Assembly: GCF_900105075.1 (NCBI RefSeq)
Contig: NZ_FNSK01000001.1
Coordinates: forward strand, 2,059,001 to 2,123,000
Reading direction: 5' to 3'
DNA length: 64,000 nucleotides
DNA from: Rhodobacter sp. 24-YEA-8
GTDB taxonomy: Bacteria; Pseudomonadota; Alphaproteobacteria; Rhodobacterales; Rhodobacteraceae
Shown here: piece after piece, positions 4,528 through 7,507 of the stretch
Layout of the letters: each line of letters starts with the position of its first letter
How positions within the stretch are numbered: position 1 is the first letter of the stretch
Position numbers and translations under genes: made by a program
Notes under the pieces: generated by a model
Told to the model about the DNA's origin: nothing
The model's input: only the letters and a program-made list of their open reading frames with translations
The model's database searches: none

Positions 4528-5430
4528 ATGCCTGAGAAAGATCCCCGCACCAGGCTGAGCCTTTCCGCCGGCATCGCCTCGGTCATGGTCGCGTCGGTGC
4601 TGGTCGGGCTGAAGCTCTGGGCGGTGGTGGCGACTGGCGCGCTGTCGGTTGCCGCCTCGCTGGCCGACAGCGCGGTGGATCTGGTGATGTCGCTCGCGGC
4701 CGCCAGCGCGATCCTTTACGCGGCGCGTCCGGCGGATGAAGACCACGCTTTCGGGCACAGTTCAGCCGAAGATCTGACCGCGCTGGCCCAGGCGCTTCTG
4801 GTCACCGGATCGGCCGGTTACATCGCCTGGTCTGCGCTGGACCGGCTGATCAATGGCGGCGTGGCCAGTCTTGGTGCCGAGGGAACCGGCACCCTGGTGA
4901 TGGTCATCTCGATCCTGCTGACACTGGCGCTGGTCTGGTGGCAGGGGCGCGTGGCGCGGCTGACCGGCAACCGCGTGGTGGCTGCTGACCGGCTGCATTA
5001 CCTTGGCGATCTGATGCCCGCGGTCGGTGCGGTGATCGCCTTGCAGGCCTCGCAGCATCTGGGCATCACCGGGCTGGATTCCTGGGTCGCACTGCTGGCC
5101 GCCGGGGTCATGCTGATCGGCGGGGTGCGCATCGGCAAATCGGCCTGGGATGCGCTGATGGACCGCCGGGCCGATCCCGAGATCATCCGGGGCATCGCCG
5201 AACTTGCCGGGAGCTGGCCCGGCATACGCGGCTTTCACGACCTCAAGACCCGCACCAGCGGCAGCCGGGTCTTCGTCAACCTTCATATCGAGCTCGACGG
5301 CGATCAGAGCCTGCGCGAGGCCCATGACATCGGCGCCGCACTGCGCCGCGAAATCCTGCGGCGCTGGCCCGGTTCAGATGTGATCATCCACAAGGATGTT
5401 GCAGCGACGGATGGGCAGCCCGGCACCTGA
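4528..5430 (+). CDS. Cation diffusion facilitator (CDF) metal efflux transporter, FieF-like
   Basis: This 300-residue inner-membrane protein follows the CDF plan: about six transmembrane segments, then a cytoplasmic domain of some 85 residues. Metal-site signatures are ADSAVD in TM2, the FGHSSAED motif (G-H-x-x-x-E) before TM3, and HYLGD in TM5. They match FieF/YiiP-type zinc/iron/cadmium-proton antiporters. The ATG at 4528 has AGGAG six bases upstream; the upstream ATG at 4480 has no such site. No metal regulator is adjacent, so the transported ion is inferred from family only. Confidence 0.88.
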   Translation: MPEKDPRTRLSLSAGIASVMVASVLVGLKLWAVVATGALSVAASLADSAVDLVMSLAAASAILYAARPADEDHAFGHSSAEDLTALAQALLVTGSAGYIAWSALDRLINGGVASLGAEGTGTLVMVISILLTLALVWWQGRVARLTGNRVVAADRLHYLGDLMPAVGAVIALQASQHLGITGLDSWVALLAAGVMLIGGVRIGKSAWDALMDRRADPEIIRGIAELAGSWPGIRGFHDLKTRTSGSRVFVNLHIELDGDQSLREAHDIGAALRREILRRWPGSDVIIHKDVAATDGQPGT

Positions 5431-5546
5431 GCCCTTCGCGCTGTACCTTCTCGGCCAGCGGAGGGCCGGGTTGCGATCACGGCAATCCCGAAGCCGGGCA
5501 AGCAACGATCTTGCCGCGCCCCGCTGGCTGTGTAGAATAGGCAATT

Positions 5547-5572
5547 ATTCGTTCGTACAATTCCCGACGAAT
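5547..5572. promoter_or_regulatory. Candidate TetR operator: dyad ATTCGT-N14-ACGAAT
   Basis: An inverted repeat ATTCGT (5547-5552) and ACGAAT (5567-5572) lies 34 bases before the TetR start codon, inside an AT-rich stretch of otherwise GC-rich DNA. TetR-family regulators commonly bind such dyads in front of their own gene. The arms are short, so this is only a candidate site. Confidence 0.35.
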
Positions 5573-5605
5573 CCCGTTCCCCGCTGCCGTCACAGAAAGG
5601 CGCCG

Positions 5606-7507
5606 ATGACCAGTTCCGACAGTGCGGAAAAAAGAGCTGCCCCGCCTGGTGACATCCGCCAGTCCGGCTCCGAACGCCGCCCCTATATTCGTGACACTGA
5701 AGAGAACCGCCGCGAAGCGCTTGTGGCAGCGACGCAGTCACTGGTGGCCGAGGGCGGGCGCCCGGCGGCAACGGTCAGGGCGATTGCGGCGCGGGCGGGG
5801 GTCACTCCGGGGTTGATCCGTCATTACTTCGGATCGAAAGAAGATCTGCTGCGCGCAGCCTATGTCGCGCTGATGGATGGCATGACCAACAAAGGCGAAG
5901 AGGCGCTTGCCGCCGCGGGTGCCGTGCCGGCCGAACGGCTGGCAGCCTTTATTGCTGCCACCTTACGCCCGCCGGTGCTCGATCCGAAGGCGGTCGGGCT
6001 CTGGGCGGGCTATCTGCATCAGGTTCAGTCCGATCCGGGGCTTCTGGCGCAGCACGAAAGTTCATATCTGCAATTCCGGAACCGCCTCCAACAGCTGATT
6101 GCCGATCTTGGCCGCCCGGTCGCGGATGGCCAGCTGCGCCAGGAGGCCATCGCCTGCAATGCGGTGCTTGACGGGCTCTGGCTCGAAGGTTCGGTTTTGC
6201 CTGGTCACTTCGCTGAAAACGAGGTGATCCGGATCGGTTTGCGCTCGGTCGGCGCAATTCTGGGCGTCACGCTCACAGACTTTACCCCCCGCCGGCAGGC
6301 AGCTCAGACCAGGAGAGAAATGATGCGTTATTCCGCGGTGTATGAACGGCTGTCCGGCCTGGGTTCGGCGAAATGGGCGGTGCATCGCCTCGCGCGCGAG
6401 ATGGCGGAGGAAGGGATCCCGGTCATCGAGCTTACCATCGGCGAGCCGGATTCCCCCACGCCCCCCGAACTGATCGAGGCCGCGAAATCCGCGATGCGCC
6501 CCGGGCGCCTGGGCTATTCCGATGGCAGGGGCGAGCCCGGCCTGCGCGCGGCACTGGCGAAACGTTACTCGGAACGGCGCGGCCGCGCGATCGATCCCGA
6601 TCAGGTGATATGCCTGCCAGGAACTCAGACCTGTCTCTATGGCATCCTTCGCACCCTTGTCGAAAACGGCGATGAGGTGCTGATCGGCGATCCGATGTAT
6701 GCGACCTATGAAGGGCTGATCCGCCAGACCGGCGCCAGCCCGGTGCCGGTGGCACTGCGCCCCGAACATGGCTTCCGGATGCGGGCGGCGGATCTGGCGG
6801 CCAAGATCACGCCCGCGACGCGGGTGATCTTCCTCAACACGCCCCATAATCCGACCGGTGCCGTGCTGACCCGCGAGGATATCGCGGAAATCGGTGCGCT
6901 TGCGGTGAAACATGATCTCTGGATCGTCTCGGATGAGGTCTATGAGGATCTGATTTTCCCGGGCGTCACCTTCACCTCGCCGCTTGACCTGCCCGAACTG
7001 GCAGAGCGTACCATCTGTGCCGCATCGATCTCGAAATCGCATGCTGCCCCCGGCTTCCGGTCGGGCTGGGTGATCGGGCCGCAGGAATTCGCCGCCAAAC
7101 TGCTGCCGCTTTCCGAAATCATGCTTTTCGGCAACCAGCCCTTCCTGGCTGACATGACCGAACTTGCGGTTTCGCATCCGTCGCCGATTGCGGCCGGTAT
7201 GGTCGAACGCTTCTCGCGCCGGGCGGATCTGGTGGCGACGGCACTGGATGGCAAGGCCGGGCTGAAGGTTCACCGCCCCGAAGCCGGCATGTTCGCCCTT
7301 GTGGATATTCGCGCCACCCGCCTTTCGGGCCAGGAATTCGCGCTCGGGCTCCTGCGCGAGCGCCATGTCGCGGTCATGCCCGGCGAGAGCTTTGGCGAAG
7401 GGCTGGCGGGCTGGCTGCGACTTTCGCTCACCCAGCCCGATGAGGCCATCGCCGAGGCCTGCACGCAGATCCTCGCCCATGCTCAGGCGCAGATGGCCGC
7501 AGCCTGA
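5606..7507 (+). CDS. TetR-family regulator fused in frame to a class I/II PLP aminotransferase (or two genes joined by a frameshift)
   Basis: One uninterrupted frame of 633 residues holds two complete proteins. Residues about 30-235 form a TetR regulator of the BetI type, with the helix-turn-helix VRAIAARAGVTPGLIRHYFG. Residues 239-633 form a full-length fold-type I aminotransferase, with NTPHNPTGAVLT, SDEVYEDL, the PLP-binding Lys477 in SISKSHA, and a C-terminal WLRLSL. The second part has its own signals: AGGAGAG at 6311-6317 and ATG at 6320. There is a C6 run at 6285-6290. With one C fewer, the TetR frame would end at TGA 6321-6323, giving an ATGA overlap with that ATG. Either a fusion, a frameshifted pair, or a sequencing error is possible. 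Confidence 0.8.
   Translation: MTSSDSAEKRAAPPGDIRQSGSERRPYIRDTEENRREALVAATQSLVAEGGRPAATVRAIAARAGVTPGLIRHYFGSKEDLLRAAYVALMDGMTNKGEEALAAAGAVPAERLAAFIAATLRPPVLDPKAVGLWAGYLHQVQSDPGLLAQHESSYLQFRNRLQQLIADLGRPVADGQLRQEAIACNAVLDGLWLEGSVLPGHFAENEVIRIGLRSVGAILGVTLTDFTPRRQAAQTRREMMRYSAVYERLSGLGSAKWAVHRLAREMAEEGIPVIELTIGEPDSPTPPELIEAAKSAMRPGRLGYSDGRGEPGLRAALAKRYSERRGRAIDPDQVICLPGTQTCLYGILRTLVENGDEVLIGDPMYATYEGLIRQTGASPVPVALRPEHGFRMRAADLAAKITPATRVIFLNTPHNPTGAVLTREDIAEIGALAVKHDLWIVSDEVYEDLIFPGVTFTSPLDLPELAERTICAASISKSHAAPGFRSGWVIGPQEFAAKLLPLSEIMLFGNQPFLADMTELAVSHPSPIAAGMVERFSRRADLVATALDGKAGLKVHRPEAGMFALVDIRATRLSGQEFALGLLRERHVAVMPGESFGEGLAGWLRLSLTQPDEAIAEACTQILAHAQAQMAAA

Follow-up and report, generated by a model that had tools for sequence, protein, structure and literature searches.

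MocR/GabR regulators, as described for EnuR (PMC8739950), consist of a GntR-type head joined to an aminotransferase domain without enzymatic activity. A locus in the 64,000-nucleotide stretch of DNA analysed here (the window) resembles this arrangement, as the EnuR account presents it, in that a DNA-binding head precedes a class I aminotransferase-like domain that carries a PLP lysine, but the head is of the TetR rather than the GntR type. The locus also differs from MocR/GabR proteins in its enzyme half, which is closest to active enzymes and stands alone in relatives.

Singleton frame transitions provide another comparison, and are attributed by Antonov et al. (PMC3711429) to indel mutation or sequencing error. 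In their treatment of singletons, one class is expected to represent sequencing errors rather than indels, while singletons near 3' ends are more likely to be indels. The locus shares with these cases a frame change confined to a single genome and close to a gene's 3' end, and thus fits the reported 3'-end indel bias; it differs in that their genes are split by the frame change, whereas here two genes are joined.

The third system is the adjacent tetR-aminotransferase pair of Rhodobacteraceae (Pseudogemmobacter, Tabrizicola, Gemmobacter, Rhodobacter, and others), which has orthologous genes in the same order and on the same strand, with the same ribosome site and start for the second gene as the window. 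The pair encodes two proteins, whereas the window has one open frame. From the sequence comparisons below, we consider this frame to be most likely a private, and probably recent, fusion of an ordinary tetR-aminotransferase pair, caused by a small length change near the tetR end.

A TetR regulator and an aminotransferase in one open frame

The features of the locus are listed here, with G012 and G010 denoting the nearest relatives (identity to G012, 94.1% for TetR and 95.3% for the aminotransferase; to G010, 90.5% and 94.5%).

5606..7507, + strand: fused open frame, TetR plus aminotransferase (ATG 5606, TGA 7505-7507, 633 aa)
5606..6283, + strand: tetR part, a BetI-type TetR regulator as far as the C run (226 codons; TetR_N and TetR_C_6; homologues are separate)
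6285..6290, + strand: C6 run (at the same place, CCGCCCCC in G010 and C7 in G012)
6311..6317, + strand: ribosome site of the aminotransferase, AGGAGAG (shared unchanged by G012 and G010)
6320..7507, + strand: aminotransferase gene (Aminotran_1_2), which has a start to itself at ATGATG 6320-6325
6321..6323, + strand: TGA that ends tetR in G010, in the neighbouring frame and out of frame with tetR here
7034-7036, + strand: PLP lysine codon of the aminotransferase (alignment with 1bkg)

The first-pass annotation had reported an unbroken frame encoding two complete proteins. The frame is indeed free of internal stops from ATG 5606 to TGA 7505-7507, and the C run, the ribosome site, and the start at 6320 all lie where they had been placed. 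Completeness of both proteins was borne out by Pfam, which locates TetR_N at residues 40-85 (profile positions 2-47 of 47) and the BetI-type C-terminal domain TetR_C_6 at residues 108-219 (1-114 of 115), both above cut-off, and Aminotran_1_2 at residues 272-622 (2-361 of 361), with an interdomain linker of about 19 residues in the fused chain. The near full-length TetR_N and TetR_C_6 make the head a BetI-type TetR, and the full Aminotran_1_2 domain with its PLP lysine makes the remainder a class I/II PLP aminotransferase. K238 of the query aligns opposite K234, the PLP-binding lysine of the Thermus aspartate aminotransferase 1bkg. No named aminotransferase subfamily could be assigned from the 25 listed of 89 NCBIfam matches, each of those 25 falling below its cut-off. 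Two full-length domains in one frame are more than a random open frame. Comparison of the window with G010 gave dN/dS values of 0.196 for the TetR core and 0.169 for the aminotransferase (G012 with G010, 0.145 and 0.101); by this measure both genes are constrained, with a constraint that is not datable to the time after fusion.

The fused sequence has a single, identical match in its own genome, on the largest contig. A cation efflux gene lies upstream on the same strand, and an MFS transporter gene lies downstream on the opposite strand. The mechanical list of open reading frames also shows the frame open 5' of 5606, to ATG 5396 (703 aa), an extension (5396-5605) that overlaps the end of the cation efflux gene.

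The two genes are separate in relatives

Both halves were matched in 13/13 genomes of the genus set, which comprises the window's own genome and 12 congeners. The genus may be inferred to be Pseudogemmobacter in the GTDB sense, since the junctions of three of these genomes equal those of Pseudogemmobacter bohemicus, P. hezensis, and P. humi records. In 12/12 congeners the two genes are adjacent, on the same strand, and separate: relative to the second ATG, stop and start form a 4-nt ATGA overlap in six and a 1-nt overlap in three, two have 76 and 146 nt between the genes, and tetR extends 23 nt into the aminotransferase gene in G012. A FIPEI-like TetR end occurs in 8 of the 12 congeners; the window lacks it, as do G002, G003, G010, and G012, which marks the tail of tetR as drifting.

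Across the family, 180/248 genomes had a match at E <= 1e-60, many of them just to more distant aminotransferases. Among the family matches listed, the window's own alone spans both genes without a stop, and those in G116, G190, G162, and G237 span both with one internal TGA. Junctions were read at 122 loci: 13 from the genus, 29 from family genomes, and 80 taken from the 320 loci confirmed in a scan of genome contigs; the remaining family genomes were judged by the listed matches. A tetR gene lies beside the aminotransferase gene at 116 of the 122 loci, and six have no tetR match. Removal of identical junctions left 105 distinct ones. Comparing the junction in relatives had been proposed as a check on the locus, with separate genes and an ATGA overlap named as the sign of an artefact or a private mutation. 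This is the pattern observed: the window's own junction is the only one fused, and 59 of the 105 distinct junctions have an ATGA overlap. The others comprise nine one-base overlaps, 30 gaps of 0-20 nt, four of 21-200 nt, and two longer overlaps (19 and 23 nt). Eleven further loci include three with both genes, again separate, and eight without a tetR match in the stretch. Because the pair is tightly packed, with stop and start often overlapping, its organization in relatives suggests translational coupling, together with control by its own TetR.

Searches for other fused proteins

A search with the whole protein gave 5080 matches among 7999 candidates scored, and the 120 listed were separate aminotransferases of 389-399 aa; P0001, from metagenome contigs, has a 96% identical aminotransferase. 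With the TetR part alone there were 2094 matches, of which the 120 listed were 209-286 aa long. Against proteins of 348-1108 aa (8000 candidates scored), the TetR part gave three weak matches, none with an aminotransferase domain in precomputed Pfam assignments. The plasmids searched held no further copy of the fusion, and viral contigs held no exact match to the junction. Among the titles and abstract openings listed in literature searches, none described a TetR-aminotransferase fusion, which does not prove its absence in print.

The idea of a TetR-headed, MocR-like class thus gained no second member among the matches listed or the junctions read. The head is TetR_N by Pfam, not the GntR-type winged helix of MocR/GabR proteins, and every relative whose junction was read keeps the two genes apart instead of as one conserved chain.

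The C run and its length

Between the same flanks, the tract is CCGCCCCC (eight bases, interrupted by a G) in G010, C7 in G012, and C6 in the window, two bases fewer than in G010. The eight bases of G010 place the tetR stop inside ATGATG, whereas six carry tetR on into the aminotransferase. A stretch of 27 bases, AGCTCAGACCAGGAGAGAAATGATGCG, is the same in the window as in G012; G010 departs from it at one position, upstream of the ribosome site. In both relatives the reading frame of the aminotransferase extends without a stop ahead of the second ATG (by 108 nt in G010 and 96 nt in G012); a single frame change of suitable size near the tetR end would therefore be enough to join the genes. The first-pass annotation had suggested that a single C could account for the fusion: the TGA at 6321-6323 that would then end tetR is present, but the difference from G010, the nearest usable relative, is two bases. 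A C6 would also arise from C5 by one added base, through error or mutation, and C5 occurs in none of these relatives.

The C6 length is that of the assembled sequence of one isolate. Assembly quality was assessed by frame tests. In a strict test (reference proteins from G002, G004, and G010; 75% identity, 85% coverage), frame changes were found in 0/105 conserved genes of the window's genome and 14/93 of G012. The 105 genes contain 38 G/C runs of six or more, and by the rule of three these clean runs bound the error rate per run only at about 8%. A comparison of 400 kb of the window's genome with 400 kb of G012 revealed out-of-frame stretches of at least 45 nt in 66/256 orthologous open frames, antisense frames included; among those listed, most reflected one-base gaps with G012 shorter. 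In G012 C1:3048001-3448000 (L161-L180), this comparison shows one-base gaps in G/C runs relative to the window's genome. Given its frame changes and these gaps, single-base differences in G012 are unreliable.

A looser frame test found split genes in the window's genome at 9/98, 0/36, and 0/26 with references G002, G004, and G010, respectively, compared with 22/90, 5/32, and 4/28 in G012. For six of the nine, with reference proteins of 842, 531, 468, 539, 246, and 178 aa, G012 shows a split as well. A seventh (566 aa) lies antisense to the cation efflux gene and its preceding neighbour, which leaves two (367 and 264 aa) as candidate frame changes. Since the strict test found frame changes in none of the window's conserved genes compared with 14/93 in G012, the C6 of the window is probably real, and the C7 of G012 should be treated as weak evidence. 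Reading the C7 as a step in a shrinking tract was considered and dropped, as conserved genes of G012 are often frameshifted.

Origin of the fused frame

Fusion, frameshift, and sequencing error had all been offered as explanations of the locus, and a private mutation is the best supported: relatives have two separate genes, and close to the junction there is a length difference that changes the frame. The starting point would have been a normal two-gene unit, with a BetI-type TetR regulator followed by the aminotransferase. A small length change in the G/C-rich tract near the tetR end, most simply a net loss of two bases, would have brought tetR into register with the downstream gene at the cost of its own stop, so that ribosomes translating tetR would run on into the enzyme and produce one chain. 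We infer that the change is real in the cell and that the fused protein is made. The free aminotransferase can probably still be made because its own ribosome site and start are intact, and, with the tetR tail under little constraint, the length change was presumably close to neutral.

The main competitor is a sequencing or assembly error in the C run, in which case the cell would carry two normal genes that overlap at ATGA. Sequencing errors often fall in homopolymers, the related G012 assembly shows many, and the fusion is found in the window's genome alone; yet none of the 105 conserved genes of that genome changes frame, and the difference from G010 is two bases and not the usual one, making an error unlikely, though it is the alternative to be taken most seriously. 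Slippage at the C run, whether programmed or as phase variation, would yield fused as well as separate forms. The lengths reported for the tract in three close genomes (8, 7, and 6) would be in keeping with this, but the tract is absent from the other 10 congeners, it is broken by a G in G010, and its length in G012 is unreliable. A run of six is short for phase variation. Programmed frameshifting in particular, which had been among the suggestions, found no support: a C-rich tract limited to the window, G012, and G010 among 13 genus genomes, with differing lengths, is not a conserved slippery site, and we regard slippage of any kind as very improbable.

Hardly more credible is a selected, functional regulator-enzyme fusion, similar to MocR/GabR but with a TetR head. 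Both halves are complete and joined by the linker, the PLP lysine is retained, and the dN/dS values against G010 indicate constraint on tetR and the aminotransferase. That constraint cannot be placed after the fusion, however, the ribosome site and start of the enzyme are preserved, and neither the protein searches (among matches listed) nor the junctions read gave a second fused member. It is similarly a long shot that, following the private mutation favoured here, a newborn, expressed fusion already lets the amino acid or PLP state of its enzyme half alter DNA binding by the regulator, as a TetR-headed MocR analogue at its origin. TetR proteins and these aminotransferases are usually dimers, so the fused chain may or may not keep both functions.

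Under the private-mutation explanation, the locus illustrates that where two genes are packed closely together, a single small indel can give rise to a multidomain protein, and it cautions against taking a single fused open frame for a new class. It would be of more than minor note only with proof that the fused protein exists and has a new function; if made and working, such a protein would serve as a model for the origin of MocR-like chains.

Separately, tetR and the aminotransferase gene lie in the same frame, kept apart by one stop (7 TAA, 10 TGA, 1 TAG), in 18 distinct junctions with gaps of 0, 3, or 15 nt (L032, L033, L049, L061, L062, L064, L068-L076, L080, L082, and L104). Stop loss or readthrough would fuse the genes at these loci, and fusions may thus be one mutation away in several genera.
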